From: Pelotomaculum schinkii | Lineage (GTDB): Bacteria > Bacillota > Desulfotomaculia > Desulfotomaculales > Pelotomaculaceae | NCBI RefSeq assembly: GCF_004369205.1 | Contig: NZ_QFGA01000003.1 | Coordinates: 372,001 to 436,000, forward strand | Length of the DNA stretch: 64,000 bases | Direction: 5' to 3' | Part shown: positions 13,269 to 41,817 of the stretch, one piece after another | Layout: every line of letters begins with the position of its first letter | How positions within the stretch are numbered: position 1 is the stretch's first letter | Made by a program: the position numbers and the translations under genes | The notes under the pieces: model-generated | Told to the model about the DNA's origin: nothing | Database searches by the model: none | What the model saw: the letters and a program-made list of their open reading frames with translations, nothing else

Positions 13269-13632
13269 CGCGCTTCACCTGCTTTTCGATAAAAGCTCTA
13301 AGCTCTTCAATGTTCTCTTGCGTTAAGTTTTCATCCTGAAACAGAGCGCTGATCAGATTTTTGGCCGAACCGTTGTAAATCGACCGGATAAAACTCCGGG
13401 TCTGCATTTTCTGATATTCCTCTTCGCTGATTCCCGCCCAATACTCATGGGCATGAGAGCGGCCGGTTTTAACCGCATTCAATGCGCCTTTATGAATCAG
13501 CCGGCCGGCAAGGGTCAGGATGGTTGTTACTTTTTTGCCGGGCAGCTTTTCCATGATGTCCTTAGTGGTCACTCTTTCGCCACTGTCCCATACGATGCGC
13601 ATAATCTCCATTTCTGCATCTGTAATATTCAC
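13261..13632 (-). CDS. BlaI/MecI-family transcriptional repressor
   Basis: 123 residues, winged helix: ITDAEMEIMRIVWDSGERVT, then TTKDIMEKLPGKKVTTILTLAGRLIHKG and the C-terminal dimerisation helices. This family binds TACA/TGTA dyads as a dimer and is cleaved when the partner BlaR1 protease fires. GTG start. It is co-transcribed with the protease gene and probably represses its own promoter through the dyad at 13655-13687. Confidence 0.88.
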   Translation of the reverse strand: MNITDAEMEIMRIVWDSGERVTTKDIMEKLPGKKVTTILTLAGRLIHKGALNAVKTGRSHAHEYWAGISEEEYQKMQTRSFIRSIYNGSAKNLISALFQDENLTQENIEELRAFIEKQVKRDD

Positions 13633-13654
13633 CAGCGTAACATCTCCCTCCGCT

Positions 13655-13687
13655 TCTACAACTTGTTTTTATTTTACATCTTGTAGA
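13655..13687. promoter_or_regulatory. BlaI-type operator dyad
   Basis: TCTACAA (13655-13661) and TTGTAGA (13681-13687) form a perfect inverted repeat, with inner TTGT/ACA extensions. This is the TACA-TGTA style of BlaI/MecI operators and overlaps the promoter. Confidence 0.7.
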
Positions 13688-13699
13688 AACGAATGGCAA
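13671..13699 (-). promoter_or_regulatory. sigma-A promoter of the BlaI-BlaR1 pair
   Basis: Minus strand TTGCCA (13699-13694), 17-bp spacer, TAAAAT (13676-13671). The spacer and -10 box are covered by the operator dyad. Confidence 0.6.
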
Positions 13700-13866
13700 T
13701 AGGGAAATAATGAATATCAAATCGCCAGCATCGGCACGGGTGGAGGCGGCCAGGGATTGATACCGGTTAATCCGGCTGACCAAAAAACATTAATGTTATT
13801 TGGACAATCGGCAACTCACAAAGGTACCCACCCTGTCCAACCTCCGGTTCGGGTGCTTGTCTTTGG

Positions 13867-13919
13867 GCAAAAGAAAAAGGCGCTGATTTCTCAACGCCTT
13901 AACCAAGTTCTCCCATTAT
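13867..13919 (-). repeat. terminator-bearing repeat, copy B
   Basis: Same 10-bp GAAA-loop stem and T-run (minus strand) as 11047-11097, with flanking identity on both sides. Here it would terminate the CPCC gene. Confidence 0.65.
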
Positions 13920-13960
13920 ACTTAATAATCCGAAGTCTAAGCTGTATCACAAATTGGGAT

Positions 13961-14227
13961 TTAGAAATCAGTCAATTCCACTCCACTCATTTCCTCATCT
14001 AATGGCTGTCGAATGTATTTCAGCATTTCCCGTTCGCACGCTCCAAATGCTCGAAAATTAGCACGTGCTTCCTTTAACGTCATACCATGATTTTCATCGC
14101 TCGGTTCATCAGTGCCACTAATGAACACATCGTTTTCCCAATAGCAAACAGGACATCCATATGCAACCGCATCTTTTGCCGACACTGGAAAAGTATAATA
14201 TCCGCAACATGGGCATTTATAGTTCAT
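13961..14227 (-). CDS. CPCC-family cysteine-rich protein
   Basis: 88 residues starting MNYKCPCCGYYTF, with a second pair GCPVCYWEND. The two CxxC knuckles fit the CPCC family (PF14206), predicted to bind zinc. The function is unknown. The C-terminal helix REMLKYIRQPLDEEM follows. The gene belongs to the AT-richer patch and shares the minus orientation of its neighbours. The start has GGAGGTATACTC before the ATG. Confidence 0.75.
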   Translation of the reverse strand: MNYKCPCCGYYTFPVSAKDAVAYGCPVCYWENDVFISGTDEPSDENHGMTLKEARANFRAFGACEREMLKYIRQPLDEEMSGVELTDF

Positions 14228-14255
14228 GAGTATACCTCCGACAAATTAGAATTTA

Positions 14256-14579
14256 TCAGTCTTTTAACTTTTTCCCATAATATACGACCAATGTAATTGC
14301 ATTAAGTATAATGGTAACTACAAGAAGTAATGTGGCGACCAATGCCACCGCATGGGAAGTATCCATAAGTGCTGACCAATCCTCTATCTTTACCAAATGA
14401 TCCGTATAGAAAATTTGCATACACAGTGAGATGGCACAGGCACTGACGCTTGCTACGGAAAAGACAATCCAGTTCCTGCGGTCAGCCTTATTGTGCTGCA
14501 CGAGATTAACAATAGGAAGTATCCATGCAATCAGCCCAAGTACAAGACTTCCTAAATTCAGCCAACCAGCTCCAAACAT
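14256..14579 (-). CDS. small four-helix membrane protein, possibly 5'-truncated
   Basis: 107 residues from ATG 14579 with AAGGAG 6 nt upstream. Hydrophobic helices lie near 5-27, 35-55, 68-88 and 80-102. The frame stays open and protein-like for about 45 codons upstream (EPFSIIGSSDKTLEEIYKER and on to YIYKEKV) but has no ATG, GTG or TTG before the TAA near 14717. It is either an internal start or a gene that lost its 5' end. The family is not recognised. Confidence 0.5.
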   Translation of the reverse strand: MFGAGWLNLGSLVLGLIAWILPIVNLVQHNKADRRNWIVFSVASVSACAISLCMQIFYTDHLVKIEDWSALMDTSHAVALVATLLLVVTIILNAITLVVYYGKKLKD

Positions 14580-14722
14580 AACTTTCTCCTTATAAATATA
14601 TCTTTGCTCTGGCGTTATTCCGTTAAGCTCCGGACGCTCCTTATAGATTTCTTCTAACGTTTTATCCGAGCTTCCGATAATACTAAAGGGTTCTCCAGCT
14701 TCAATCGGATAATCAGATTAAC

Positions 14723-15598
14723 CTAGTTATTCAGTTTTGTAATCGCAGGATACTCTGATAATAATTTTTCATTAGCAATTTCAAGTTGTTGACAATAGTT
14801 GGCATAAGAATCACTTAACTTTTTCATTTCAGGGATAAAAACATCATAGTATCCACTTGTATTATTAAACTCTTTAAGTATCTCTTGAATTTTGAAAGCA
14901 GGAGAATTTTTATATTCATCAGACTTTTTATATTCAAGATACCATGTCAGCATTTCCTTGTTTTCTGATAAAAACTGTTCAGGATCTTCAATAGACCTCT
15001 TTGTTTGTTCATTCATCTCCCGAATATTCTCTGTACTGATGTGCCGAGTGCTTTCAACCAGAAAATCCTGCAACTCTTTGGGAAAGGTCAGGGCAGGGGC
15101 CTCATCCAGAAACTCTGTGATTTCTTTATAAGCAGCCTGTTGTTGGGGTGTTGAAATCGGCTCATTCAAAAATCGTGCAAAATGCAAACAAATAAAGCGA
15201 CCGTAATATCCGGGAAACGTCTCTAACAGCTTATCCGTAACCGTTTGATTCTGTTCAATGGCGTTCAACACTGCTTCTATTTCTGCAAAACTCTTACCGA
15301 TACTAAGTTGGTCAAGTATTGCTTGTTTTGTTTTTTCCCTTTGCACACGCAATTCTTTTTGTACTGATATTTTTTGTAAAACATTTCCTTTTTCATCTGC
15401 AAGTATCGCTTTAATATCGTCTGTACCAAGTCCGATTTTACGAAAGACAGAAATTTTCTTTAAAAGCTCCACATCATTGTCACCGAAATATTTGTATCCG
15501 TTTTCCAAAATTTCAGGGAAAACCAATCCTTGATTTGTATAGTATTCAATTGCTTTTTTGGTTAAATTGGTTGCTTTGCTTACTTCGTTAATTAACAT
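14723..15598 (-). CDS. MerR-family transcriptional regulator
   Basis: About 291 residues. The N-terminal winged helix has MLINEVSKATNLTKKAIEYY, then YFGDNDVELLKKISVFRKIGL, the standard MerR DNA-binding region. It is followed by a long helical effector domain of about 200 residues without the cysteines of metal sensors, so a small organic ligand is more likely. Start at ATG 15598 behind GAGGTGAT; an in-frame extension to 15646 would run into the promoter. It probably autoregulates through the dyad at 15622-15640. Confidence 0.85.
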   Translation of the reverse strand: MLINEVSKATNLTKKAIEYYTNQGLVFPEILENGYKYFGDNDVELLKKISVFRKIGLGTDDIKAILADEKGNVLQKISVQKELRVQREKTKQAILDQLSIGKSFAEIEAVLNAIEQNQTVTDKLLETFPGYYGRFICLHFARFLNEPISTPQQQAAYKEITEFLDEAPALTFPKELQDFLVESTRHISTENIREMNEQTKRSIEDPEQFLSENKEMLTWYLEYKKSDEYKNSPAFKIQEILKEFNNTSGYYDVFIPEMKKLSDSYANYCQQLEIANEKLLSEYPAITKLNN

Positions 15599-15615
15599 TT
15601 TATCACCTCGAACCA

Positions 15616-15646
15616 ATCGTAAGCTAACACCCAAGGTGATAGTCAA
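15616..15646 (-). promoter_or_regulatory. MerR-type promoter and operator
   Basis: Minus strand TTGACT (15646-15641), a 19-bp spacer, TACGAT (15621-15616). The over-long spacer carries the near-perfect dyad TATCACC-TTG-GGTGTTA, the classic arrangement that MerR proteins untwist to activate or repress. Confidence 0.7.
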
Positions 15647-15792
15647 TAGGTTTTCATCGTAAAATGTACAATTCTAACCATATTATATTTTCCCCAGGTT
15701 ATGGAATCAATCGGCAATTCCGTTAGAACCTTTCAATTTCCTGCGGCCGCCCTATCCCTAACGTTATTTTCAAATAGTCGTTATAATCCTTT

Positions 15793-15908
15793 AGGGGTGG
15801 TTTGTGATAATTATGCGGTTGGCGAAGCTTTCAATGAGTCTTAAGACTCGGCCAGCAACGGCCCTTCCATATCAGGGCTAGAGCAAACCACCCGCTGAGC
15901 GGGTGGTT
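15793..15908. repeat. structured element, possible IS200/IS605-type remnant
   Basis: It starts with AGGGGTGGTTTG and ends with CAAACCACCCGC-TGA-GCGGGTGGTT. The final 10-bp hairpin (15886-15908) is followed by ATGATTTTTC. The left edge can pair with the hairpin's left arm. The internal sequence includes further small hairpins. It looks like the 3' end of a TnpB-type element or a structured RNA, but no transposase reading frame remains. Confidence 0.35.
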
Positions 15909-15940
15909 ATGATTTTTCTGAGATAATTTCATAACGGGTA

Positions 15941-15967
15941 TCAATAAACAATCAAAAAAGCCGAATA
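15941..15967 (+). promoter_or_regulatory. sigma-D-like promoter for motAB
   Basis: TCAA (15941-15944), exactly 15 nt, then GCCGAATA (15960-15967), against the consensus TAAA-N15-GCCGATAT. It lies 113 nt before the motA start. Confidence 0.5.
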
Positions 15968-16080
15968 ACATACTGGGTGTAGTTTTCTGATTGTACCAGG
16001 GCGCTTAGCGGGCAGCCTTTTTTATTAAAAGTTCTTGCCCAGTATTTTGTTTAGTCAAGCCAAGGGAAGGGGTTTGTTGC

Positions 16081-16848
16081 GTGGGCGTAACCACTATTGT
16101 CGGCTTTATAATTGCCGCCGGTTGTCTGGTATTAGCTTATATCCTGGATGGTGGGAACATCTCAACTCTGTTCAGAGGCACCGCGGCGTTGATTGTTTTT
16201 GGAGGCACCATCGGGGCAACCACAATGTGTTTTTCTTTCCAGGAGCTAAAGACTGTTCCCAAGCTCATCAAAATCATTTTATTTCATAAGCACCCGGACG
16301 AGGTCGCGTTAATTGAACAGATCGTGGATTTGTCGGATAAGGTTCGCCGGGAGGGCGTCTTGTATCTGGAAAAACAGCTTCCTCAAATTGATGACGATTT
16401 CATGCGCAAAGGGATTCAGCTTGTAGTGGACGGCACCGACCCGGAGCTGGTTCGCATGATCATGGAAACGGAGTTGTATGCCATGCAGGAGCGCCACAGC
16501 GCCGGGGCCGGTGTCTTTGAGGCAGCCGGCGGATTCGCCCCCACCATGGGGATTATTGGAACGGTGCTGGGTCTGGTGCATGTGCTTGGGAACCTTGACA
16601 GTCCGGAAACTCTGGGCCCGGCGATTGCACTGGCTTTTATCGCCACCTTGTATGGAATTGGCTCAGCCAATATTTTGTGGCTTCCCATCGCTGAAAAGTT
16701 GAAAAATATCGGCAAAAAAGAGGACATATTGCGAGAATTGATGCTGGAGGGGATTCTATCCATCCAGTCCGGTTACAACCCCTTGCTGGTGCGCGAGAGA
16801 CTGACAGCCTTTTTGAGGCCCAGGACACAATTCGCAGAGGAAGAGTAG
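16081..16848 (+). CDS. motA: flagellar motor stator protein MotA
   Basis: 255 residues with four membrane helices (about 2-20, 30-50, 145-170 and 180-200). The stretch GGFAPTMGIIGTVLGLVHVL and the following SANILWLPIAEKLK are hallmark MotA regions that line the ion channel with MotB. A cytoplasmic loop of about 90 residues carries the charged residues that contact FliG. GTG start behind AAGGGAAGGGG. It is followed 24 nt later by motB and preceded by a sigma-D-like promoter, fitting late-class expression. Confidence 0.95.
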   Translation: MGVTTIVGFIIAAGCLVLAYILDGGNISTLFRGTAALIVFGGTIGATTMCFSFQELKTVPKLIKIILFHKHPDEVALIEQIVDLSDKVRREGVLYLEKQLPQIDDDFMRKGIQLVVDGTDPELVRMIMETELYAMQERHSAGAGVFEAAGGFAPTMGIIGTVLGLVHVLGNLDSPETLGPAIALAFIATLYGIGSANILWLPIAEKLKNIGKKEDILRELMLEGILSIQSGYNPLLVRERLTAFLRPRTQFAEEE

Positions 16849-16871
16849 GCACGGAAGGAAGGTAGGTTTGG

Positions 16872-17651
16872 ATGGAGCGGCGCGGGCTCACAAAAAGAAA
16901 GGACAACAAAGAAAGGTGGCTGCTGACCTATTCCGACTTGATTACCCTGCTCATGGCCTTTTTTGTGATGCTTTACGCGCTCAGCAGCATCAACGCGCGA
17001 AAATTTCAGGCAGTAGCCCTTTCTTTAGCAATGGCGATGGGGGGCGGCGGGCAGTCGGTGCTTAGTGAACCAGGAGCAGCCCTGGCGCCGGGTATCTCCA
17101 GCAGTACTTTTGAGATAGACAAAGAGATCCAAGAGCTCAGTGAAATGGAGCGGATTAAAAATGAGCTGCAGGCCTATATAGATCAAAACGGTTTGAATGG
17201 AAAAGTAACTGTTACTTTGGAAGAGAGAGGGGTTGTTGTAAGTTTTCAGGATGTAGCCCTATTTCCCTTGGGCTCGGCTGGGCTTTTGCCGGATGCCAAA
17301 GAGAAGATAAACAAAATTGGGCTGATTCTAATGAAGACTACTCATTACATAAGAGTTGAGGGACATACGGACAACCTTCCTATTAACACCAGATTATTCC
17401 CTTCCAACTGGGAACTTTCCGTAGCGAGGGCAACCAGTGTGGTCCAGGAATTAATTTATTCATTGAATTTCGCGCCTTACCGTCTGTCTGCCACCGGTTA
17501 CGGCGAGTTTCGCCCGCGGGAGCCCAACGACTCGGAAGCCCAACGCCAACGAAACCGCCGGGTGGATATCGTGATTTTAAAGAGTAAGTATGAGACGGCT
17601 GAACCGGGGTCGCAAATACTATCTTCTGATAACATAAATATATTACCCTAA
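16872..17651 (+). CDS. motB: flagellar motor stator protein MotB
   Basis: 259 residues. A basic N-terminus (RRGLTKRKDNKERW) precedes the single membrane helix, which contains the ion-carrying Asp in TYSDLITLLMAFFVMLYALS. A plug/linker region and a C-terminal OmpA-like peptidoglycan-binding domain follow (about 130-250, with VEGHTDNLPIN and RNRRVDI). It anchors MotA to the cell wall. Whether protons or sodium drive it cannot be decided safely from these residues. Confidence 0.95.
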   Translation: MERRGLTKRKDNKERWLLTYSDLITLLMAFFVMLYALSSINARKFQAVALSLAMAMGGGGQSVLSEPGAALAPGISSSTFEIDKEIQELSEMERIKNELQAYIDQNGLNGKVTVTLEERGVVVSFQDVALFPLGSAGLLPDAKEKINKIGLILMKTTHYIRVEGHTDNLPINTRLFPSNWELSVARATSVVQELIYSLNFAPYRLSATGYGEFRPREPNDSEAQRQRNRRVDIVILKSKYETAEPGSQILSSDNINILP

Positions 17652-28031: not shown

Positions 28032-30338
28032 ATGTTTGACGACGATCTGAACGAAAAGTTAGAAATGGTAAATTGTTTTGTAACTGAAAGCCGGGAGCTT
28101 TTGGATGACGTTGAACCACAAATCATAGCTTTGGAGAGGGACGCGGTCTCTTTCGGAAAAATTGACGAGGAAATACTCAACGCGATATTTCGTCTGTTCC
28201 ATTCATTAAAAGGATCGGCTTCTTTTTTAGATCTTCAAACAGTGATCAGGGTAACACATGAAGCAGAAACTTTACTGGATATTTTTCGCAATGGACAAGC
28301 TGTTTTGGAGCCCGGGCATATTGACCTGCTCATCCGTACCAGTGACTTTATCAGAAATATTTTGGATATAGTAGAGCGGCAGCGAAGCGATGAAGGCTTC
28401 GAGGCCGACGCGGAAGTGATTATAGATGATTTTAAAAAAGCGATTCAAGCTATTGACGGAGGACAGCCGACTTTAAACGTCGCCATAGATGCAGATACAT
28501 CTCCTGACCCCGCAGAAGGCGCCGGAGAAGCCGGTGAAAACATCCCCCATGATAGTTTGGAAGGAATGGACCTGTCTATTGTCCCGGAAATGACCGGGCG
28601 TTTTGTTGAAGAAAGTATAGAACTTTTGGATGACGCAGAGAGAGCTTTACTGGTACTTGAGAAGACACCGGATAATTTGGAAAGCGCCGGTCAAGCTTTC
28701 CGCGATCTGCATAGTTTTAAAGGCAATGCAGGCTTTTTGGCGTACGCGGAACTGGAGGAGGTAAGCCATCATGCTGAGACGCTCCTTGACAGGATCAGAG
28801 AAGGCGCCATAGTTTGTGACGCGGTGGCGGTATCTTTCCTGCTGATTGCCATAGATGTTCTGCGGGACGGAGTCCGCCAGATCGAAAACAATATTACCCC
28901 TGAATTATCTGGAAAACAAGAGATATGCATGTATTTAAAAAATATGGCCGGGGACGCCGGCGAAGATGCAAGTGAAGATGGGCAGGAATCCGAACCGGTC
29001 TGTCTCGAAAAACCGGGGGACTTTGAAAACTGGCAAATAGAAGAAAATATAAAGGAGCATTCAGTAGAGGAAAAGCAGCAGCAGGATACTCCTGCACATG
29101 GAGAAGCTGCGAAAGCTGGAGAGAGACAAGAGCCGGGCGTTGCAAAAGAAAAAAGGCTCGCTCAGCAGCAGGTAATCCGTGTAGATCTTGAAAAACTTGA
29201 TAAACTTCTGGACCTTGTTGGCGAACTGGTTATTTCTGAAGCAATGGTGGCCAATAACCAGGACTTGAAAGGGCTTCAACTGGATCGATTTGAAAAGGCC
29301 GTATTACATCTTGATAAAATAACCAGGGATATCCAGGAAGTAGCGATGTCCATGCGGATGATTCCCCTTAGTGGAACCTTCAGCAAGATGGTGCGTCTGG
29401 TACGCGACCTGTCCCAAAAAGTAAACAAGAAAGTCAGTTTGGAAATCATCGGAGAAGAGACCGAGGTAGACAAGACTATTATTGAACAGATCTCCGATCC
29501 CCTGGTGCATCTTATCCGAAATGCGGTGGACCATGGTATCGAAGAGCCGGAAGAACGAATCGCAGCGGGAAAACCGGAGTCGGGCCAATTGACCATTGAA
29601 GCGAAGCACTCAGCCGGAGAGGTGTGGATCACCATAGAAGACGACGGCAGAGGGCTGGACCGGGAAAGAATATTGCAAAAGGCTATAGAACGAGGTCTGG
29701 TCATTGACGAAGATCGTGATATGAAAGACGAGGACGTGTGGCGGCTGATATTTGAACCCGGGTTTTCCACAGCTGATAAAGTCTCGAGCATATCCGGCAG
29801 GGGTGTCGGTATGGATGTTGTAAAACGCAATATCGAAAAACTGCGAGGCAGGGTGGATATCCGCAGTATGAAAGGCGCCGGAACCGTATTTGCCGTCCGC
29901 ATTCCCCTGACCCTGGCCATAATTGAGGGAATGGTGGTAAAAGTTGGCCACAACCGGTACACCATCCCGATCAATTCGATTAAGGAATCACTGCAGCCTA
30001 CCGGCGACCAGATTACCTGTATGCCGGACAATCAGGAAGTGGTAAGTATTCGCGGAGAACTTTTGCCTGTAATCCGCCTGCATGAACTATATGGTGTAGC
30101 GTCGGACTGCCGGAGCCTTGACAGTGGAATTTTGGTCGTTGTGGAAAATAGTGAAAAAAAATGCTGCCTGTTCGTGGACGAAGTGCTGGGTCAGCAGCAA
30201 ATAGTGATTAAGGGGCTGTCCAGTTACCTGGGGCACGTCAAAAGCGTGTCGGGGTGCGCCATCCTTGGTGATGGCGATATAAGTATGATCCTTGACGTAG
30301 ACGATTTGATTAACTCTGCAGAAGGCGCCAATAACTAA
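28032..30338 (+). CDS. cheA: chemotaxis histidine kinase CheA with two HPt domains
   Basis: 768 residues. The first HPt domain has its phospho-acceptor His in FHSLKGSASFL near 57. A second complete HPt has LHSFKGNAGFL near 226. An acidic linker follows (about 300-380), then the dimerisation helix (LDKLLDLVGELVISEAM near 385), the ATPase lobe (LIRNAVDHGIE near 490, GRGVGMDVVKRN near 589) and a C-terminal CheW-like coupling domain. A separate CheY-binding P2 domain is not obvious. The second HPt is unusual for chemotaxis CheA and suggests two output branches. GAGGTG precedes the ATG. Confidence 0.95.
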   Translation: MFDDDLNEKLEMVNCFVTESRELLDDVEPQIIALERDAVSFGKIDEEILNAIFRLFHSLKGSASFLDLQTVIRVTHEAETLLDIFRNGQAVLEPGHIDLLIRTSDFIRNILDIVERQRSDEGFEADAEVIIDDFKKAIQAIDGGQPTLNVAIDADTSPDPAEGAGEAGENIPHDSLEGMDLSIVPEMTGRFVEESIELLDDAERALLVLEKTPDNLESAGQAFRDLHSFKGNAGFLAYAELEEVSHHAETLLDRIREGAIVCDAVAVSFLLIAIDVLRDGVRQIENNITPELSGKQEICMYLKNMAGDAGEDASEDGQESEPVCLEKPGDFENWQIEENIKEHSVEEKQQQDTPAHGEAAKAGERQEPGVAKEKRLAQQQVIRVDLEKLDKLLDLVGELVISEAMVANNQDLKGLQLDRFEKAVLHLDKITRDIQEVAMSMRMIPLSGTFSKMVRLVRDLSQKVNKKVSLEIIGEETEVDKTIIEQISDPLVHLIRNAVDHGIEEPEERIAAGKPESGQLTIEAKHSAGEVWITIEDDGRGLDRERILQKAIERGLVIDEDRDMKDEDVWRLIFEPGFSTADKVSSISGRGVGMDVVKRNIEKLRGRVDIRSMKGAGTVFAVRIPLTLAIIEGMVVKVGHNRYTIPINSIKESLQPTGDQITCMPDNQEVVSIRGELLPVIRLHELYGVASDCRSLDSGILVVVENSEKKCCLFVDEVLGQQQIVIKGLSSYLGHVKSVSGCAILGDGDISMILDVDDLINSAEGANN

Positions 30339-30445: not shown

Positions 30446-30517
30446 AGTGGCCCTCAGGTGCGCGTAAAAAGTAAAGCCAATTTGCTTTTTCAGCAAGAAA
30501 GAACGGGGGATCGCTTA

Positions 30518-33500
30518 ATGAAACTGGGAATTAAGGTAATGTTGACATTCTGTGCAATTACTGTTCTAAACGTGGTAATCAGCCTGGCAGGTTATTGGTG
30601 GCTATCCGGGATAAATTTAGCGATGGCGCTTATCGCTGGTAGCGCATTAGTACTTGCAATGGGGTATTTCTTACATTGCAGCATTTCCGTCAGCATAAGT
30701 GATCTGGCGGCAGAGTGCAGCCGGGTGACGAAAGCGGCGCAGGAAGGAAAGCTGGATATCAGGGGGGATGCAAAAAAAGTCAAATCAGATTTTCAGGAAG
30801 TTATCCATGGATTTAATAAAACCCTGGACGCAGTGAGCGGCCCGCTGAATTTGGCAACTGATTATTTGGAGCATATCGCCAAGGGTGAAACAGCGCTGCC
30901 GAAGATTACCGAAAGCTATAACGGTGACTACAATAGGATTAAAGACAGCTTGAACGCCTGCATCCAGGAGATAGCTACCCTTGTGGGTGAAGTCGGCGTG
31001 GGTATTAACGCCGCCCGCGAAGGCAAACTGGGTATAAGGGCAAATCCCGACAAGACAACCGGTGTTTATCGCAAGATCCTCCGGGGTATAAACGATACCC
31101 TGGATGCGGTAATCGGCCCGCTGAATGTGGCAGCCGAGTATATAGACCGGATCAGCAAGGGCGACATCCCCCCGAAGATCACCGACATTTACAACGGTGA
31201 CTTCAACGAGATTAAGGACAACCTGAATGCGTGTATTGACGCCGTAAACGGCCTGCTTCATGAGGCAGACAGCCTGATCAATGCCGTCGGAGACGGCAGG
31301 CTGGACGCCCGTGGCAACGCGGCAGCCTATACCGGCGACTGGGGGAAACTGTTGGGTGGTATGAACGGCCTGATTGAAGCGGTAGCCAATCCTGTTAATG
31401 AAATGCTGACAGTTTTCGGCAAAATGGCAGTAAATGATTTCAGCCAGAAAATGGTCAAGGATTATACCGGCGCATGGAACAACCTCAAGGAAGCCGCAAA
31501 CCTGGTCCATGCACTGTTAGCTCGCATTCAGGAAATTTTAGATAATATCAGCAAGGGCGATCTTAGTGACTTGCACGAATTGAAGAAAGTTGGAAAGAGA
31601 AGCGCCAACGACGAATTGATTCCTGCCATTGTCGGGATGATGGAGGCAATCCAAAATCTGGTGGATGACGCCAATATGCTGGCAGTGGCGGCAGTGGAAG
31701 GCAGGCTCGACACCAGGGCCGATGTGACGAAGCACAATGGCGATTTCCGCAAGGTTGTTGAGGGGGTTAACAAGACCCTGGACGCGGTAATCGGGCCTTT
31801 AAACGTGGCGGCTGAATATGTGGATCTGATCAGCAAAGGCAACATTCCGCCGAAGATAACGGATACCTACCAGGGTGACTTCAACGAGGTCAAGAACAAC
31901 CTGAATGGCTGCATAGATGTCGTGAACGGCCTGCTTAAAGAGGTGGAACACCTTATCCAGGCCGTCCAAGACGGCAAACTGGATACCCGCGGCCAGGCAG
32001 CGGCTTTTGCCGGCGATTGGGGTGAACTGGTGGGAGGCATGAACGGCATGATGGAGGCCGTATGCAACCCGGTGAATGAACTTATTGCTGTTCTGAAACG
32101 GATGGCGGTTAACGATTTAACCAAAAGGATGGATCAAGAATATTCCGGCGCCTGGGACGACCTTAAGAAAGCCACCAATGATGTTAATGCGCGGATGACA
32201 AGAATTCGTGAAACTGTAATTAATATCAGCAACGGTAGCCTTATTGACCTGGAAGTTTATAAGAAAATCGGGCGCAGAAGCGAAAACGACGGATTAGTTC
32301 CCGGTTTTATCAAGATGATAGAAGCCATCCAAAAGCTGGCCGGTGACGCCAACATGCTGGCCGGGGCGGCAGTGGAAGGCAAGCTGGACACCCGGGCCGA
32401 CGCGGTCAGGCACGACGGCGAGTACCGCAAGATCATCGACGGAGTCAACAGGATGATGGACGCCGTAATCAACCCGATTCATGAAGCAGCCGGTTGCCTG
32501 AAGGAGATGGCCGACGGCAACCTGGACGTGCGAGTCGCCGGTAATTATAAGGGTGACCATGCCATCATTAAAAATGCTCTCAATACTACACTTGAAGCGC
32601 TTAATAAAATCATCAAAGAAGAGGCGGTCAGATGCTTGCAGGAAATAGCTGAAGGCAATCTGGACGTTGCTATCACCGGTGACTATAAGGGTGACTACGC
32701 TTGTATTAAAGATGCTCTTAACAAAACTGTTAACGACCTTAATGAGAGTTTGGGACAGATTTCCATAGCTATCGAACAGGTAAACACTGGCGCCTGGCAG
32801 GTGTCTGAATCCAGCCAAGCCCTGTCGCAGGGAGCGGCAGAGTCGGCCGGCGCCCTGGAAGAGCTCACTTCCTCCATGCAGGAAATGAACTCCCAGACCA
32901 AACAAAATGCTGAAAACGCCATGCAGGCCAACCAGCTTGCCACCCAGGCCAGAGGCACCGCGGAGAAAGGCAATGAGCAGATGGCGCAGATGGTCAAGGC
33001 CATGAGCGACATTAATGAATCCGCCGCTAATATATCTAAAATAATCAAGGCAATCGACGAGATCGCTTTTCAAACCAACATACTGGCCTTAAATGCTGCG
33101 GTTGAGGCAGCCCGTGCCGGCAAGCACGGTAAGGGCTTTACCGTCGTAGCGGAGGAAGTGAGAAATCTTGCCCAGCGTAGCGCCAAGGCGGCCAAGGAAA
33201 CTGCCGAGATGATCGAGGGCTCGATCAAGAAGACCGAAGTAGGCGCCAGGATCGCCGAGGAGACCTCCAGGGCACTGGAGGAAATCGTACTGGGCACCAC
33301 CAAGGTAACTGACCTGATCAGCGAAATAGCCTCTGCCTCGAAAGAGCAGGCTTTGGGTATCGGGCAAATAAACGAGGGTTTAAATCAGGTTGACCAGGTC
33401 ACGCAGCAGAACTCGGCCGGCTCGGAAGAACTGGCCGCCGCTAGCGAAGAGATGTCCAGCCAGGCCGCGATAGTAAAACAAATGCTGGATAAGTTTAAGC

Positions 33501-33709
33501 TTAAAAAACAAGCTTCTCCGGGTGTGCCGGCAGGTAGGGCCCCTCAAATGCCGTACGCGGCACACTCGCGTCCTTCTCAGAAACAAACCTGGAGCAGCAA
33601 GAATAAACCGGTTAGGACAGGCGCCCTGGAGGTTGCCGCCACAAAAGATGACGGGGTAAAGCCGCAACACATTATTCCTTTGGACGATGCGGAATTCGGC
33701 AATTTTTAG
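30518..33709 (+). CDS. methyl-accepting chemotaxis protein with about 15 tandem HAMP-like units
   Basis: 1063 residues. Two membrane helices (about 6-25 and 31-50) are separated by only a few residues (WLSGIN), so there is no extracellular sensor. The long middle (about 55-740) is a chain of HAMP-like units of about 45 residues. Recurrent forms are [16 protein letters not shown], PKITDxYxGDFNEIK and [18 protein letters not shown]. The signalling hairpin tip, [18 protein letters not shown], is near 846. The tail ends DDAEFGNF. The ATG at 30518 has GGGGGA upstream; an in-frame start at 30458 lies in the scar. The ligand or input is unknown, possibly cytoplasmic or membrane state. Confidence 0.9.
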
Positions 33710-33773: not shown

Positions 33774-33829
33774 AATGATAGGAATCACTAAAAAATATTT
33801 CTATCGAGTTTATTAAGGAGGTGAAATCT

Positions 33830-34327
33830 GTGAGTTTAAATGAAAGATGGGACGATGATCCCCTGGAAGAAGATGATGAGGACACTCAGGAGGACAAGTT
33901 TCTGACTTTTTTTCTAAACAGGGAAGAATTCGGCATCGAAATCCGCTACGTAATGGAAATAATCGGAATACAGAATATTACTGAAGTTCCGGATGTGCCC
34001 CGCTATATCAAGGGAGTAATCAACTTGCGCGGCAAGGTCATCCCGGTCATGGACGTACGGTTGCGTTTCGAGATGGAGGAACGCGCCTATGACGATCGTA
34101 CCTGTATTGTGGTCATCTGTATCGACGAGCAATCGGTGGGGCTGATTGTCGACCGTGTGTCCGAAGTCCTGGATATCCCCAAGGGTGATATTGAGCCTCC
34201 GCCAAAGGGGAAAAGAGGCGAAAACAGCCGTTTTATCCAGGGGATGGGCAAAGCCGGCGAACATGTAATAATTTTATTAAACGCCAACCAATTGCTTTTT
34301 GATTTTACTCAGGGAGATGATCACTAG
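33830..34327 (+). CDS. cheW: chemotaxis coupling protein CheW
   Basis: 165 residues. An acidic N-terminal extension (DDDPLEEDDEDTQEDK) precedes the CheW fold: FFLNREEFGIEIRYVMEI, VPDVPRYIKGVINLRGKV and VMDVRLRF. It bridges receptors and CheA. GTG at 33830 sits 8 nt after AGGAGG; an in-frame GTG at 33821 overlaps that signal. It heads the intact cheW-cheR-mcp module and is the parent of the scar at 30351. Confidence 0.95.
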   Translation: MSLNERWDDDPLEEDDEDTQEDKFLTFFLNREEFGIEIRYVMEIIGIQNITEVPDVPRYIKGVINLRGKVIPVMDVRLRFEMEERAYDDRTCIVVICIDEQSVGLIVDRVSEVLDIPKGDIEPPPKGKRGENSRFIQGMGKAGEHVIILLNANQLLFDFTQGDDH

Positions 34328-34372: not shown

Positions 34373-34984
34373 ATGGCTTTTACGTATTTTTTTCGGGATA
34401 TGCACACGCTTGAACTGATTATTAAGCATGTGGTCCCATATATTGCCGGACGCAGCAAGGTCCGCGTGTGGGACGCCGGCTGCGCCATGGGTCCCGAACC
34501 CTATTCCCTGGCGATGATGTTTGCCGAAAATTTAGGACACTTTGCCTTCCGCAATTTTCATATTGACGCCACAGATTTGGATGCCAGCAACCAGTTTGGC
34601 AAGAGCATATTCGAAGGAGTATATAAGGAAGACGCTCTCAGGCGGATCCCGCGGGATTATTTTAAAAAGTATTTCCAGCCGGACGGGATGAGCGGCTGTT
34701 TCAAGATCAACGAGCTGATTAGAAGCAAGGTTTTTTACCAAAGGCACGATTTGCTCTCCTTGCAGCCGGTTGGGTACGGTTTCAGTCTGGTTTTGTGCAA
34801 GAATGTACTGTTGCATTTCCAGTCCTCCGAGCGGATTGAAGTGATCAAGATGTTCCATGGCGCCCTGGCGCCGGGCGGCTACTTTGCCATGGAGCAGACG
34901 CAGAAAATGCCGCAGGAAATTGAACACTTGTTTGAGCAGGTGGCGCCCGACGCGCAGTTGTTCCGGAAAGTTGAGACCGTTTAA
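34373..34984 (+). CDS. CheR-like methyltransferase lacking the N-terminal domain
   Basis: 203 residues covering only the SAM-binding CheR domain. VRVWDAGCAMGPEPYSLAM is the variant of the usual GCSSGEEPYTLAM, ATDLDASN binds SAM, and FSLVLCKNVLLHFQSSERI is the NV-hydrophobic motif. The N-terminal helical domain that recognises receptor methylation sites is missing. A stop codon lies just upstream in frame, so the shortness is real. It sits between cheW and mcp2, while a full CheR is encoded at 39887. It may be specialised for the HAMP-rich receptors. The Shine-Dalgarno sequence is weak. Confidence 0.8.
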   Translation: MAFTYFFRDMHTLELIIKHVVPYIAGRSKVRVWDAGCAMGPEPYSLAMMFAENLGHFAFRNFHIDATDLDASNQFGKSIFEGVYKEDALRRIPRDYFKKYFQPDGMSGCFKINELIRSKVFYQRHDLLSLQPVGYGFSLVLCKNVLLHFQSSERIEVIKMFHGALAPGGYFAMEQTQKMPQEIEHLFEQVAPDAQLFRKVETV

Positions 34985-35057
34985 TGAGGTAGGCTCTTGA
35001 TGGGGCATTAATAGTGAGGCAATTAGTTTAATCAAGAAAGAAAAGGGGGTCTGCTTT

Positions 35058-38000
35058 ATGAAAATGGAAAACAAAGTAATGTTGACGTTCTTTACAACTG
35101 CTGTTTTAGCAGTCTTAATCAGCCTGGCAGGTTACTTCGGCCTATCCGGTATACATTTAGCGGCGGCGCTAATCCTTGGCAGTGTGTTGGTGCTTGCAAT
35201 GGGGTTTTTCTTGCACCGCAATATTTCTGCCAACGTAAGTGGCCTGGTGGCAGAGCACAGCCTTTTGACGCAAGCAGTGCAGGAAGGAAGACTTAGTGTG
35301 CGGGGGGATGCAAGTAAAGTCAATCCGGAGTTTCAGGAAATAATCCAGGGATTTAATAAATCCCTGGACGCGATGAACGGGCCGCTAAATGTGGCAGCCG
35401 AGTATATGGATAAGATTGGTAAGGGTGAAACAAGGCTGCCGATAATCACTGAAACCTTCAATGGTGACTTCAATAAGATTAAGGACAGCCTGAATGCCTG
35501 CATCCATGAGATAGGCATCCTGGTCGATGAAGTAGGCGTGGCTATAAACGCCGCCCGTGAGGGGAAATTAGACCAGAGATCAAATGCTGAAAGGACCGTA
35601 GGCGTCTATCGCAAGATCTTACGCGGTGTTAATGATACCGTGGACGCTTTGGTCGGGCCCTTGAACATGGCGGCTGAGTATGTGGACCGGATCAGCAAGG
35701 GCGACATGCCGCCGGTAATTACCGATGACTACAAGGGCGACTATAATGAGATTAAAAACAATTTGAATGGCTGCATTGGTTCCGTTAACGGCCTGCTCGA
35801 AGAAGTAAACAGTCTAATCCGGGCTGTCCGGGACGGCGAGCTGGATACCCGCGGCAACGCGGCAGTCTTTGCCGGGGCCTGGGGTGAGCTGGTGGTCGGG
35901 ATGAACGGTTTACTGGAAGCCGTGGCTGAACCGGTTGATGAACTCAAGTCGGTTCTCGGCCGGGTGGCGGTAAATGACCTGACTCAAAAGATGGACAAAG
36001 AATACAACGGGGTTTGGTATGACCTCAAGAACGCCACCAACGAGGTTATTAAATGCATAGAGCACATCCAGGCTACGTTGCTTAATGTCAGCGTCGGTGA
36101 CTTAAGTGAGCTGGAAGAAGCAAAGAAGGCCGGGAGAAGAAGCGAAAACGACCGTTTGGTGCCGTCCATTATTAAGATGATGGATGCGATAAAAAATCTG
36201 GCGGATGACGCCGCAATGCTGACCGGGGCGGCAATGGCAGGCAAGCTGGATATCCGGGCTGATGCTGCCAGGCATGACGGCGAGTACCGCAAAATCATTG
36301 AAGAATTCAATAATACCCTGGACGCGGTGATCGGGCCTCTGAACGTGGCGGCAGAGTATGTGGACCGGATCAGCAAGGGCGACATGCCGCCGAAGATCAC
36401 TGACAGCTACAATGGTGACTTTAATGAGATCAAGAATAACCTGAACACCTGTATAGATAGTATCAACAGTATTATTGAAGAAATGGGCAATTTATACACG
36501 GCTCATAATGCAGGCAATATTGACTTTTATATTCCGGAAGAGAGCTTTGCAGGCGCCTACCGTGAAATGGCTGCAGGTGTTAACAAGACAGTTAAAATAC
36601 ATGTGAGAAATATTCTTCATATTATCAAAATCATCAAGGCTTATGCCGAAGGGGATTTCTCCCCGGTCCTGCAAAAATTAGCGGGCAAGATGGCGGGAAC
36701 CAACGAAATAGTGGACCTCGTGAAGAACAACCTGCAAAGCCTGATTACAGAAGTCAAAAACCTGGTCCAGGCCGTTAGAGACGGCAGACTGGAGACCCGC
36801 AGCAACGCGGCCGCCTTTGCCGGTGATTGGGGCCAGCTGGTGGGCGATATGAACAGCTTGATGGAAGCTGTTGCTGAACCGGTTGACGAACTGATGGCGG
36901 TGCTTGGTCGGATGGCGGTAAATGATTTCACCCTGAACATGGAAAAAGAGTACAGCGGGGTTTGGAATGAACTGAAAGCTTATGCCAACAGAGTTACCGT
37001 AGCGATTAGGGATCTCCAGAATACAACGAAAAAAATCAGCAACGGTGACTTAAGCGACCTGGATATGCTTAAAGGAATTGGGCAAAGAAGTGACAATGAT
37101 GAGTTGGTGCCCGCCTATATTCAGATGATAGAAGCCATCAAAGAACTGGTGGTTGACGCTAACATGGTGGCTGAGGCGGTGGCGGCCGGCAATTTGGCCG
37201 TACGCGCCGATGATGCCAAGCATGGCGGTGACTTCCGCATGGTTGTCGAGGGCCTCAATCGTACCATGGATGCGGTCTCCGAACCGGTAAATGAGATGTT
37301 GGCGGTGGTTGACCGGGTAGCCTTGAATGACGTGACCCTTAAGATGGAAAAAGAGTATCGCGGCGCCTGGAACGACCTGAAGAACGGTGTTAACAGCTTC
37401 ATAAGAATTATAACACACATCCAAAATACGGTGATTAAAATCAGCCGCGGTGACTTAAGCGAGCTGGAAAACGATAAAAAGGTTGGGCGGAGATGCGAAA
37501 ATGACGAGCTGATGCCGGCCATGATTAAAATGATGGAGTCTATCCGGGGGCTGGCCGACGATGCTGTGATGCTGACCGGGGCGGCAATGGCCGGCAAGTT
37601 GGATGTCCGGGCCGACGTTACCAAACACAACGGTGAGTACCGCAGGATCATTGAAGAGTTCAACGGCACTCTCGACGCGTTGATCGGGCCGTTGAACGTG
37701 GCAGCCGAGTATATAGACCGGATCAGCAAGGGTGAGATGCCGCCGCAGATCACCGACAATTACAGCGGTGACTTTAATGAGATCAAGAACAACCTGAACA
37801 CCTGTATCGACAGCATCAGCAGTGTTGTGACCGAGATGAACAACTTATACGAGGCGCAGAGCGCAGGCGACGCCGACTATTATATCCAGGAGGAGCACTT
37901 TAGCGGCTTTTACCAGCAAATGGTCACCGGCGTCAACCAGTCGGTTAAAATTCACGTCAGGAATACCCTTAAAATCCTTAAAGTAGTTTCAGCTTATGCT

Positions 38001-39734
38001 GAGGGCGACTTTTCAAAAATACTGGAAAAGCTGCCGGGCAAGCAAGTGATTGCCAACGAAAAGATGGATCTGATCAGGAACAACCTCCTGAGCCTGATCA
38101 ATGAGATCAACACCCTGGTCCACGACGCCAGGCTGGGTAAGCTTGACACCCGCGGCAACGAGGCGGCCTTTGCCGGCCACTGGGGCAAGCTGGTCGCTGA
38201 GATGAACGGCCTGATGGAGGCTGTCGCCGGACCGGTCGGCGAATTGCAGGCGGTGTTGGACCGGCTGGCGGTTAACGACCTGACCCGGAAGATGGTGAAC
38301 GAGTACAGCGGCGTATGGGATGAACTGAAAGGCGATATCAACAGCGCGATTGACCAGGTAGCGAATATAGAGCGTGTATTGGTAAATATCGGAAATGGAA
38401 ATCTGGATGACCTGGATGGGCTCAAGAAAATCGGGCAAAGAAGCGACAATGATAAATTAGTGCCCGCCGGTATTCATATGATCGAGGCCATCCGGCACTT
38501 GCTCAACGATGCGGAGGAACTGGCCCAGGCGGCCATAGACGGCAAGCTTGACACCAGGGCAGACGCCTCCAGGCACGAAGGTGAGTACCGCAAGATCATC
38601 GACGGTTTCAACAAGACCCTTGACGCTGTGCTCAACCCGATTAACGAAGCGGTGGAATGCTTGAAAGAAATGGCCGGGGGCAATCTGGACGTCGCAGTCA
38701 CCGGTAATTATAAAGGTGATCATGCTATCATTAAAGACGCTCTAAACAAGACCCTTGAAGCTATAAACGAAACCATGGGGCAGGTTACCATCGCGATGGA
38801 ACAGGTAAATACCGGCGCCTGGCAGGTTTCCGACTCCAGTCAGTCCCTGTCGCAGGGCGCGGCAGAGTCGGCCAGCACCATGGAACAGCTCACTTCCTCC
38901 ATGAATGAAATGAACTCCCAGACCAAACAAAACGCCGATAACGCCATGCAGGCCAACCAGCTTGCCACCCAGGCCAGAAGTATCGCAGAGAAAGGCAATA
39001 ATCAGATGATTCAGATGGTCAGGGCCATGAGCGATATTAATGAATCCGCCGCTAATATATCTAAAATAATCAAGGCAATTGATGAGATTGCCTTCCAGAC
39101 CAATATCCTGGCCTTAAACGCGGCGGTAGAGGCGGCCCGCGCCGGTAAGCACGGCAAAGGCTTTACCGTTGTGGCCGAGGAAGTGAGGAACCTGGCCCAG
39201 CGTAGCGCCAAGGCGGCCAAGGAGACCGCGGAGATGATCGAAGGCTCGATCCAAAAGACCGAAATAGGCGCCAAAATTGCCGAGGAAACCTCCAAGGCAC
39301 TGGAAGAGATCGTGCTGGGCACGGCCAAGGTAACCGACCTGATCGGTGAAATAGCCTCAGCCTCCAAAGAACAGGCTGTAGGTATCGGGCAAATCAACGA
39401 GGGCTTGAACCAGGTAGATCAGGTTACGCAGCAAAACTCGGCTGGCTCGGAAGAACTGGCTGCCGCTAGCGAAGAGATGTCCAGTCAGGCTGCGATGGTT
39501 AAGCAGATGCTCGATAAGTTTACACTTAGAAAGCAAGGTTTTACGGTCGCTCCGGCAGTTGCAGCCACCACCAAATCGCTTGTTGCGCATCAGCCTCCTG
39601 TTCAGGAGCGAAATTGGGGCATTAAGAATAAACCCGTTAAAAAGGGTGTCCTGGAAGTAGCCGCGGCGAAGGATGCCGGGGTAAAGCCGCAAGACATTAT
39701 TTCTCTGAATGATGCGGAATTTGGCAATTTCTGA
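35058..39734 (+). CDS. methyl-accepting chemotaxis protein with about 26 tandem HAMP-like units
   Basis: 1558 residues. Two membrane helices (about 8-26 and 32-51) are joined by a minimal loop (FGLSGIH), so again there is no external sensor domain. From about 55 to 1250 I count roughly 26 HAMP-like units of 40-48 residues, alternating between recognisable types: [16 protein letters not shown], [19 protein letters not shown], AVNDLTxKMxxEYxGVW, GRRSENDxLVPxxIKMM and VKIHVRNxLxIxK. The signalling tip [18 protein letters not shown] is near 1341. The C-terminal tail DDAEFGNF is shared with mcp1. GGGGG precedes the ATG. It is far longer than typical receptors. Confidence 0.9.
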
Positions 39735-39820
39735 TAAGAAAAGGGGCCAATAAGATGATACCTGTCTTCGGAGGAGTATCCCAATTAATATAACTTATTT
39801 AATTGATTAAACAGTATAAT

Positions 39821-39868
39821 ACCGGCGGGAGATTTAGGTGGCTGTTTCAAACTAATTCTCCCGTCGGT
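39821..39868 (+). promoter_or_regulatory. stem-loop in cheR leader
   Basis: ACCGGCGGGAGA / TCTCCCGTCGGT, a 12-bp stem with one G-T pair and a 24-nt loop, ending 18 nt before the cheR start codon. A TATAAT-like TATAAT hexamer (39816-39821) touches its left edge. Confidence 0.45.
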
Positions 39869-39886
39869 GGTATTGGTGGTGAACTC

Positions 39887-40708
39887 ATGCAGCTTACCGA
39901 CCGGGAGTTTCAACTGATTAGCAGTCTGGTCAATAAAATTTGCGGGATTACGCTTGGAGAAAAAAAACGCAGCCTGGTTGCCGCGCGCCTGCAAAAAGTG
40001 TTGCTTTCAGGCGGGTTCGGCAGCTTCCAGGAGTATTATGAATATATTATCCAGGATACCAGCGGAGAGGCGCTGCTCAATCTGGTGGATCAGATTTCTA
40101 CTAATCATACCTATTTTTTTCGCGAAAAAGAGCATTTTGATTTTTTAATAAATGTTGCGCTGCCTGGAATTAGTGAAGAGCAGCGGAATACTGGCAGGCG
40201 GAAGGTTAGAATCTGGTCTGCCGGGTGCTCTTCAGGGGAGGAACCTTACACCCTGGCGATGATTCTTAAGGAATATCTAGGCGGTAATTCATTACATATG
40301 GACGCAGGTATTCTGGCAACTGATATTTCGTTCAGTGTCTTAGAAACAGCTATGGCAGGTATATACCCGGCGGATAAGATGTTACAGGTGCCCATATCAT
40401 ACCGGCAGCGTTATTTTAGCCCTTTAAAAGACGGTAACTGGGCGGTTAAGCAATGTTTGAAGGATATGGTTCTTTTCCGCCGTTTAAACCTGATGAGCCG
40501 CGAATTCCGGTTCAAAGGACTTTTTCAGGTGATTTTTTGCCGTAATGTAATGATCTACTTTGACAAAGCCACCCGTCGGGAACTCATCGAAAAGTTACAC
40601 CGGTATACCGAACCGGGCGGGTATTTGTTAATCGGCCATTCCGAGACGCTAGACCGGGAGGCCGGCTTATATAAATATATCAAGCCTTCGGTATATAAAA
40701 AAATATAA
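39887..40708 (+). CDS. cheR: chemotaxis receptor methyltransferase CheR
   Basis: 273 residues. The N-terminal helical domain (MQLTDREFQLISSLVNKICG) is followed by the SAM domain with IWSAGCSSGEEPYTLAM, ATDISFSVLETA and IFCRNVMIYFDKATRR, ending GGYLLIGHSETL. It methylates receptor glutamates. ATG at 39887 behind GGTGGTGAACTC; an upstream in-frame extension to 39803 would translate the leader stem-loop. It pairs with cheB. Confidence 0.95.
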   Translation: MQLTDREFQLISSLVNKICGITLGEKKRSLVAARLQKVLLSGGFGSFQEYYEYIIQDTSGEALLNLVDQISTNHTYFFREKEHFDFLINVALPGISEEQRNTGRRKVRIWSAGCSSGEEPYTLAMILKEYLGGNSLHMDAGILATDISFSVLETAMAGIYPADKMLQVPISYRQRYFSPLKDGNWAVKQCLKDMVLFRRLNLMSREFRFKGLFQVIFCRNVMIYFDKATRRELIEKLHRYTEPGGYLLIGHSETLDREAGLYKYIKPSVYKKI

Positions 40709-40761
40709 CTTTTCCTTCAAACAAAATTTTAAACAGGTCGATCTTTTTAAAGGTGAACATA

Positions 40762-41817
40762 ATGAAAAAGATTAAAGTGCTTGTTGTCGATGATTCTGCC
40801 CTGGTAAGGGAAATTCTGGCCCGGGGATTGGCCATGGACCGGGACATCGAGGTGGTCGGGGTGGCCTCCGACCCATTTATAGCCCGCGATAAGATAGTCC
40901 GGTTGAAACCGGATGTGCTTACACTTGACGTAGAAATGCCCAGGATGGACGGAGTGGAATTTTTGCGCCATTTGATGCCCCAGTACCCGTTGCCGGTAAT
41001 TGTGGTTAGCGCCCTCACCAGAAAAGGCGCCGCCATCACTCTTGCCGCCCTTGAGGCCGGAGCTGTTGATGTGGTTGTCAAGCCGAGCACTGACATAGCC
41101 CGCGGTTTAGATGTTATGTTGGGGGAATTGCGTAACAAGGTGAAAATTGCGGCCTTAGCGAATGTAAGCGCCTGGAAGGGCAGCCGTGAATCTATCAAAA
41201 CAATTAGGGCGGACAGCCGGGCTTTAGCCGAATCTACAGATAAGGTGATAGCCATCGGGGCTTCTACCGGAGGGACGGAAGCAATCCGCAAAATATTGCA
41301 AAGTTTTACCGCCGCAATACCCGGCGTGGTGGTGGTACAGCACATGCCTGTTGGATTTACCAAACATTTTGCTGACAGCTTAAATGATCTATGCGCTATG
41401 GAAGTGAAAGAAGCTAAAACAGGGGACAGAGTATTGCCCGGGCGGGTACTGATTGCGCCGGGTGACCGTCACATGACCGTGCGCCGTTCCGGCGGTTCCT
41501 ATCTGGTTGACTGCCGGTCAGGTGATAAGGTTTGCGGGCATTGCCCTTCAGTTGAGGTGCTGTTCCAGTCGGTTGCAGAATTTGTCGGGGCTAACGCCAT
41601 CGGGATCATGCTTACCGGAATGGGCAGTGACGGCGCCAACGGTATGGTGGCTATGCGCCGGGCCGGGGCCAGGACAATAGCGCAGGATGAAACTACATCT
41701 GTGGTATTCGGCATGCCGAAGGTCGCTTATGAACTTGGCGGGGCGGAATGCCTGGCTCCGCTGGATGTAATCCCATTTACGGTCATGAATTTACTGGCGC
41801 AATATAAAACGGTTTAA
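40762..41817 (+). CDS. cheB: chemotaxis receptor methylesterase CheB
   Basis: 351 residues. A receiver domain (VLVVDDSALVREIL, with phospho-Asp in LTLDVEMPRMDG) is followed by a linker and the esterase domain, which contains AIGASTGGTEAI (nucleophile Ser), VVQHMPVGFTK (His) and GIMLTGMGSDGANGM (Asp). It removes receptor methyl groups when phosphorylated by CheA. ATG at 40762 behind AGGTGAACATA. It is the only receiver domain seen in the window. Confidence 0.96.
   Translation: MKKIKVLVVDDSALVREILARGLAMDRDIEVVGVASDPFIARDKIVRLKPDVLTLDVEMPRMDGVEFLRHLMPQYPLPVIVVSALTRKGAAITLAALEAGAVDVVVKPSTDIARGLDVMLGELRNKVKIAALANVSAWKGSRESIKTIRADSRALAESTDKVIAIGASTGGTEAIRKILQSFTAAIPGVVVVQHMPVGFTKHFADSLNDLCAMEVKEAKTGDRVLPGRVLIAPGDRHMTVRRSGGSYLVDCRSGDKVCGHCPSVEVLFQSVAEFVGANAIGIMLTGMGSDGANGMVAMRRAGARTIAQDETTSVVFGMPKVAYELGGAECLAPLDVIPFTVMNLLAQYKTV

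Follow-up and report, generated by a model that had tools for sequence, protein, structure and literature searches.

A 64,000-nt stretch of the Pelotomaculum schinkii genome (contig NZ_QFGA01000003.1, positions 372,001 to 436,000; hereafter the window) carries a chemoreceptor gene, the product of which is designated P. P belongs to the poly-HAMP (divergent HAMP, HAMP_2) methyl-accepting chemotaxis receptors and is anchored in the membrane; its 26 HAMP units fall into six types that follow each other in a near-fixed order. The gene lies in a flagellar and chemotaxis cluster (with flagellin, fliD, fliS and flaG) in the order cheA-Q-cheW-miniCheR-P-cheR-cheB, where Q is a sister poly-HAMP receptor and miniCheR encodes a truncated CheR. 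A similar gene order was seen in many relatives.

The open reading frame of P starts with ATG, preceded by AAAAGGGGG. Hydropathy placed two adjacent hydrophobic helices with a short loop between them in the first ~52 residues (residues ~5–52). The HAMP units follow head to tail and without gaps from residue 61 to 1236, each 42–48 residues long; they were cut by eye and tested with a unit profile. MCPsignal (PF00015) matched residues 1301–1457 (E 7.1e-50), and the best NCBIfam matches were Aer2 and other chemoreceptor models, every one below cut-off. The C-terminal EFGNF conforms to the same pattern as GWEEF and NWETF and is a candidate tether. In the signalling domains of P and Q a methylation-site-like pattern occurs twice, and the array of P has one more match.

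Pfam and NCBIfam scans together with hydropathy revealed no sensor domain in P, including the segment between the membrane helices. Pfam detected no PAS domain in P or Q, and no histidine kinase or receiver domain in P. These results upheld the observations of the initial annotation, which had described two short-loop membrane helices, no sensor domain, about 26 HAMP-like units and roughly 1200 residues of them (26 and 1176 by our count).

The HAMP nature of the units, also proposed there, was borne out by several profiles. HAMP_2 (PF18947) matched P in 11 stretches (649 bits, E 2.7e-200). When the units were cut out with flanks, 20 of the 26 matched HAMP_2 and 12 matched HAMP in Pfam at E<=0.1; at ~79 residues these pieces extend into their neighbours, and a match may fall partly in the next unit, as it did for unit 1. 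The unit profile that gave the count of 26 was trained on the units of P themselves. Leave-one-out profiles scored 25 of the 26 units above all 200 shuffles each, the exception being unit 11 (7.5 vs 12.6 bits); unit 21 was weak (7.6 vs 4.1). A profile from 11 receptors outside the host family recovered 24 of the 26 units, and 15 in Q as expected.

Units 11 and 21, both of type F (see below), were also the two that the outside profile failed to recover. An iterated unit profile also dropped both (24/26), and typed profiles recovered them, the F-type profile having been started from these same two units. HAMP_N3 (PF18575) matched two stretches of P, the better one at residues 972–1010 in unit 21, and the Aer2 HAMP chains aligned with residues 469–561, which are units 10 and 11. 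In sequence, units 11 and 21 resemble HAMP_N3 and HAMP3 of Aer2.

Solved structures were matched by the other types as well. E-F units aligned with crystal chains of Aer2 HAMP2/3, and A-B units with 9trk, a solved poly-HAMP histidine-kinase chain (named 'histidine kinase,Gcn4p' by its depositors). The best match of the C-D profile was also 9trk (E 2.8e-8 overall, weak per unit). We take 9trk to be like the fungal group III kinases. Through the matches to these solved chains we infer the HAMP fold, that is, parallel dimeric four-helix bundles, for the units of P.

The six types (A–F) were defined by profiles that were started from P and refined on the arrays of the host family; the order of units was not used in the assignment. 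The 335 neighbour pairs in 22 family arrays were of only nine kinds, whereas shuffles gave at least 23. A was followed by B (90) or C (51), and B by A (60), B (15) or E (5). C was always followed by D and D by A (52/52 each), as was E by F and F by A (5/5 each).

The order was then read in 19 arrays outside the family, from 14 regions in 11 of the 16 other genomes of the phylum, none of which had been used in training. Here too C was followed by D (16/16) and E by F (3/3), and there were 11 kinds of pairs in total versus at least 19 in shuffles. B-C (4), D-D (1, with a weak unit) and F-E (1) had not occurred in the family arrays. The modules AB, ACD, and EF after AB thus keep a near-fixed order both in the host family and outside it. 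The pair counts are not independent, because the arrays are related and those of the two Pelotomaculum genomes are near-copies.

Alternating types of divergent HAMP in long arrays may have been described by Dunin-Horkawicz and Lupas in 2010 or in two papers of the same year by Airola and colleagues. The A-B alternation is therefore not claimed as new. Conserved unit parity was also considered as a rule and rejected: P and its Pelotomaculum relative (26 and 22 units) and Q and its relative (15 and 15) fit it, but the complete family arrays (8, 13, 15, 16, 17, 19, 20, 21, 22, 23 and 26 units) do not.

P and Q were compared with those of a close relative, the metagenome-assembled genome (MAG) Pelotomaculum sp. 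UBA10960 (L037; G002:C147 was taken as the same), with orthologues of 22 and 15 units. The signalling domain and units 13–26 of P were 89–100% identical per segment to the relative. On the other hand, the hairpin and units 1–12 were only 48–89% identical, even if matches were sought throughout the relative and the best one was used. Unit pairs 2–3 and 10–11 of P had no counterpart there, so that the difference between 26 and 22 consists of two 2-unit differences.

The divergence was also seen in the DNA (Table 1). The divergent tract was 51–89% identical where aligned. Its flanks, with mini-CheR and cheW on the upstream side and cheR, cheB and the remainder of P on the downstream side, were mostly 90–99% identical (range 83–100, lowest at the gene ends). 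The silent difference, uncorrected here and below, reached 0.64 in units 5–9. Outside the tract it was 0.087 in the later array, 0.149 in the later array plus signalling domain, and 0.128 in Q. Fast amino-acid evolution was rejected as the cause of the tract, since silent sites were equally divergent; DNA of other ancestry looks likelier.

In the later array of P, the replacement difference was 0.022 against the silent 0.087, a ratio of ~0.25. This part of the array is under purifying selection. An over-expanded repeat of little function, drifting in length, would account for the lability of length across the family and between genus mates. Such drift is disfavoured by this ratio, by the strict order of unit types, by the intact reading frame in both Pelotomaculum genomes and by the recurrence of the operon, and we consider it most improbable.

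Among the 22 receptors of the family that were typed (from the window and 18 further loci), the input ends were of different kinds. Eight had a hairpin only (one with a PAS insert), 11 had a sensor-sized loop, and in three the N-terminus was missing or disrupted; the typing relied on hydropathy and on where the first unit lies, and the hairpins of P and Q were those scanned for domains. Eight of the loop N-termini were scanned with Pfam. Two passed the cut-off, L030 with a 4HB domain and L027 with a Cache domain, and the remaining six gave sub-threshold 4HB matches. PAS inserts between units were above cut-off in four relatives (L022, L025, L027 and L031).

In a tree of 22 signalling domains (18 from the family, 4 from outside), the eight hairpin receptors needed three changes, and a single hairpin clade was rejected (approximately unbiased test, p 0.0013); 6 of the 19 inner branches had firm support. 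The hairpin receptors are not one clade. Together with the divergent tract, this points to exchange of the input end by recombination.

The sensors of these relatives also bear on what the array of P may do. The array itself could be the sensor and respond to osmolarity or crowding in the cytoplasm or to a small molecule; a sensing role of this kind has been suggested for the poly-HAMP part of fungal group III histidine kinases. No other sensor domain was found in P or Q, and the A-B units align with the poly-HAMP kinase chain 9trk. A title cited in PMC3418262 calls the interactions of HAMP repeats an osmosensing switch in group III kinases, and the poly-HAMP kinases AskA and AskB of Myxococcus xanthus take part in ambruticin sensing (PMC7643160). 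However, purified AskA and AskB alone did not bind ambruticin (PMC7643160), and the array is not reserved for sensorless receptors, as 4HB or Cache sensors and PAS inserts occur in long-array relatives. A sensing array is in our judgement unlikely. The ordinary sensors and PAS inserts of these relatives show that a long array is no substitute for a sensor.

The length of the array was compared across relatives. A class-wide search of 113 genomes with the first half of the array (E<=1e-60) matched 10 genomes, all in the host family; the other 15 of the 25 family genomes, the genus mate G001 included, gave no match at this threshold. Complete reading frames in sister genera had 8–23 units, and P had the most in the complete family set. 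One relative, L069, had at least 35 units in a frame that runs off the contig end. A repeat-assembly artefact is unlikely here, as its six ABACD modules are 59–69% alike in DNA and contain no Ns.

In the phylum sample (at most 14 candidates scored per genome), 17 of 398 genomes, the host genome included, had HAMP_2 matches at E<=1e-20, and apart from the host genome the open frames listed reached 1126 residues. One of these receptors, L072 (G147:C50, from another family of the phylum), has a hairpin and at least 21 units under the same order rule; it adjoins cheW and is cut at the contig end.

In a plasmid collection, 191 of 72,556 records matched at E<=1e-5, and two regions were fetched; beyond the phylum, the length comparison draws on these rather than on a systematic sample. 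A Vibrio sp. plasmid receptor had six units. The plasmid-borne Rhizobium sp. Kim5 protein WP_077989117.1 (2099 residues) is like P in having ~24–25 units in one protein, an estimate: the P-unit profile found 11 (one per pair), and a profile iterated on the Rhizobium and Vibrio proteins found 24, two per 92 residues. Unlike P, it has a histidine-kinase-like motif and adjoins a response regulator, and is not a chemoreceptor.

The initial annotation had called the number of units exceptional, unless arrays this long were routine in related genera. This was largely what we found, and exceptional length was rejected in view of the sister genera, L069 and the Rhizobium kinase. Its suggestion of a mechanical or membrane-state sensor found no support here. 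What makes P interesting is less the number 26 than the order rule, the mini-CheR and an input end that has apparently been exchanged.

A separate observation concerns L022 (positions 12968–16978, G005:C176). Here the frame of a phage-type integrase (PF00589) continues into the signalling domain and last 14 units of a poly-HAMP receptor, of which a D unit comes first. This could be a mobile element inside a poly-HAMP gene, or a MAG join.

The features of the locus are collected in Table 1.

Table 1. Features of the poly-HAMP receptor locus (positions in the window)
Feature	Position	Strand	Basis
cheA, genome's sole match to CheA dimerisation family	28032..30338	+	Pfam; genome search
Sister poly-HAMP receptor Q, 15 units, hairpin type same as P	30518..33709	+	Unit profiles
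cheW	33821..34327	+	Pfam
Mini-CheR, CheR SAM domain without CheR_N, 203 residues	34373..34984	+	Pfam, alignment
DNA divergent between the two Pelotomaculum genomes (hairpin and units 1–12), ends approximate; probable recombination tract	34961..36850	+	DNA comparison
Poly-HAMP chemoreceptor P, 26 units, 1558 residues	35058..39734	+	Open reading frame, Pfam, unit profile
Membrane hairpin of P, residues ~7–52, short loop, limits approximate	35076..35213	+	Hydropathy; no sensor in Pfam/NCBIfam
26 contiguous HAMP units, types AB AB ACD ABEF ACD ACD ABEF ACD AB	35238..38765	+	Unit, leave-one-out and typed profiles; Pfam
Methyl-accepting chemotaxis protein (MCP) signalling domain, 36H-type length	38958..39428	+	Pfam; gapless alignment to E. 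coli-type receptor chain 6s1k
C-terminal EFGNF, pattern x-aromatic-x-x-F, candidate CheR/CheB tether	39717..39731	+	Sequence pattern
Full-length cheR (CheR_N and CheR)	39803..40708	+	Pfam
cheB	40753..41817	+	Pfam

The start of Q was listed as a GTG at 30458; the ATG at 30518, which follows CGGGGG, is likelier.

The mini-CheR gene immediately upstream of P contains PF01739 and lacks PF03705 (CheR_N). Nine mini-CheRs, including that of the window, were aligned. All start at or just before the TxFFR motif, none has the N-terminal domain, and they keep the SAM-domain motifs TxFFR, GxEP and CxN. They share this domain and these motifs with the canonical CheR (PF01739 plus PF03705), and the solved relatives found for mini-CheR were ordinary CheRs.

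Mini-CheR was present in 8 of the 25 family genomes (as two fragments in G107), all among the 10 with arrays (Fisher 4e-5). In the phylum sample it was present in 4 of the 398 genomes, the host genome included, all among the 17 with HAMP_2 receptors (Fisher 2e-6); both Fisher values ignore relatedness. The CheR-like gene, which the initial annotation had paired with the receptor, is therefore a real companion: every genome with a mini-CheR (8/8 and 4/4) carries HAMP_2 receptors. Some of these receptors in the phylum genomes are short. Two further phylum hits (G129 and G208; 37–39% identity, frames of 309 and 265 residues) were taken as ordinary CheRs and left uncounted. Arrays without a mini-CheR were seen in G008, in G108 and at loci outside the family. 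Mini-CheR is probably an adaptation enzyme for P. In the open-licence literature, at the level of titles and abstract openings, no description of these receptors or of mini-CheR surfaced.

We interpreted P as a modular conformational relay from the hairpin end to the signalling tip, feeding the only CheA of the genome, and consider this fairly probable. The 26 units would form a long two-chain rod, along which a conformational state would be carried from the membrane hairpin to the tip. There, with CheW, P would set the activity of the single CheA and hence the flagellar motor. CheR and CheB would adapt P, perhaps tethered through EFGNF, and mini-CheR probably takes part. The rod would grow or shrink by whole modules (AB, ACD, and EF after AB), and the input end (hairpin, 4HB, Cache or PAS) would be swapped by recombination within homologous HAMP units, the signalling end being left undisturbed. 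The input may enter at the hairpin, at the array itself or through a partner protein.

A relay by HAMP conformers, in a rod that would be dimeric, has parallels in known receptors. In Aer2-Tar chimeras the signals sent by two HAMP conformers are opposite, and alternate switching has been proposed for tandem HAMPs (PMC3570549). The C-terminal pentapeptide of McpB/Aer2 binds its own CheR2 (PMC7698151). F7/Aer2 arrays are tall: measured from the base plate, the HAMP boundary lies at 17.5 nm and the PAS layer at 24.5 nm (PMC7184735). As two HAMPs and half a PAS separate these layers, each HAMP would take up ~2.5 nm, which suggests an estimated reach of ~80 nm for P and ~55 nm for Q.

Alternatively, the rod might serve mostly to hold the CheA/CheW base plate at a given height, and the hairpin would read the input, which could be a partner protein, the proton motive force or the state of the lipids. 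Eight of the 22 typed family receptors have, as noted above, a hairpin too short to hold a sensor, the layers of the tall F7/Aer2 arrays match receptor domains (PMC7184735), and P and Q differ by 11 units, an estimated ~27 nm. Against this, close relatives differ in length (26 vs 22), so that no fixed height is kept, and the two lengths of P and Q must share one CheA, which is awkward for a single flat array. We regard the spacer as possible but doubtful.

Several observations weigh against the relay with an exchangeable input end. An ACD module has an odd number of units, and family arrays can be odd or even in length; this fits badly with a simple sign-alternating chain, unless C-D works as one di-HAMP. 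The literature covered gave no precedent for transmission through 26 units. An AlphaFold model of eight units was poor (mean predicted local distance difference test score 41.7; three sequences, one chain) and did not confirm the rod. The genus mate G001 (94% complete) is without such an array. The divergent tract is uneven, with silent differences of 0.38 in the hairpin and unit 1 and 0.20 in unit 12, and mini-CheR, upstream of it, is also raised (0.29). The relative is a single MAG contig, with a small chance that it is a chimera. Repeated sensor loss could also have made the hairpin receptors polyphyletic; because it gives the same tree pattern, we infer the exchange without taking the tree as proof of it.

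A bolder form of the relay would be module-coded and recombination-ready. Fixed di- and tri-HAMP modules would keep the signal readable at any length, input ends and length would be freely swapped, the truncated CheR would be the dedicated adaptation enzyme of the rods, and receptors of 15 and 26 units would feed one CheA, with base plates at two heights in each cell. Taken as a whole, this is speculative and rather unlikely.

Among known systems, Aer2/McpB of Pseudomonas aeruginosa (Che2/F7) resembles P in its divergent HAMPs, of which HAMP2/3 align with the E-F units of P, in a signalling domain of the 36H type, and in an aromatic C-terminal tail with its own CheR/CheB in the cluster (PMC7698151). 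However, Aer2 is a soluble protein that combines a heme PAS with five HAMPs, and P, encoded in a flagellar operon, lacks a PAS and has 26 HAMPs behind a membrane hairpin. Group III hybrid histidine kinases (fungal Nik1/Bos1, myxobacterial AskA/AskB) have HAMP arrays without a classical sensor, as in P. Unlike P, they have a histidine kinase as output and no transmembrane region (PMC7643160); the fungal class III kinases have five to six repeats (PMC3418262), and AskA/AskB more.

The family receptors (G005, G008, G009, G015, G018, G107 and others) share the unit types and order of P, many also the same che neighbourhood, and the complete ones seen end in [DE][FY]GxF. They differ in that many have a sensor-sized loop and some PAS inserts, in having from 8 to at least 35 units, and in that some, such as two on G005:C176, are without adjoining che genes.

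The passage of a signal through HAMP units has long been debated, mostly on the basis of proteins with one to three of them. A family that varies from 8 to at least 35 units, with near-strict type order and different input ends, is a ready test of relay models, for instance of signal inversion by every unit or of di-HAMPs working as a single element. Mini-CheR may be an adaptation enzyme specific to such arrays. Should P and Q, with 26 and 15 units, indeed share one CheA, sorting of arrays by length becomes directly testable.

Five genes of the host genome (4.44 Mb, 8 contigs), including those of P and Q, match the MCP signalling family. The three other genes (G000:C1, at 811401, 531990 and 1787814) must share the single CheA, in which Pfam marked two Hpt stretches. 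The gene at 811401 has a longer signalling match (543 vs 471 bases) and perhaps belongs to another length class.

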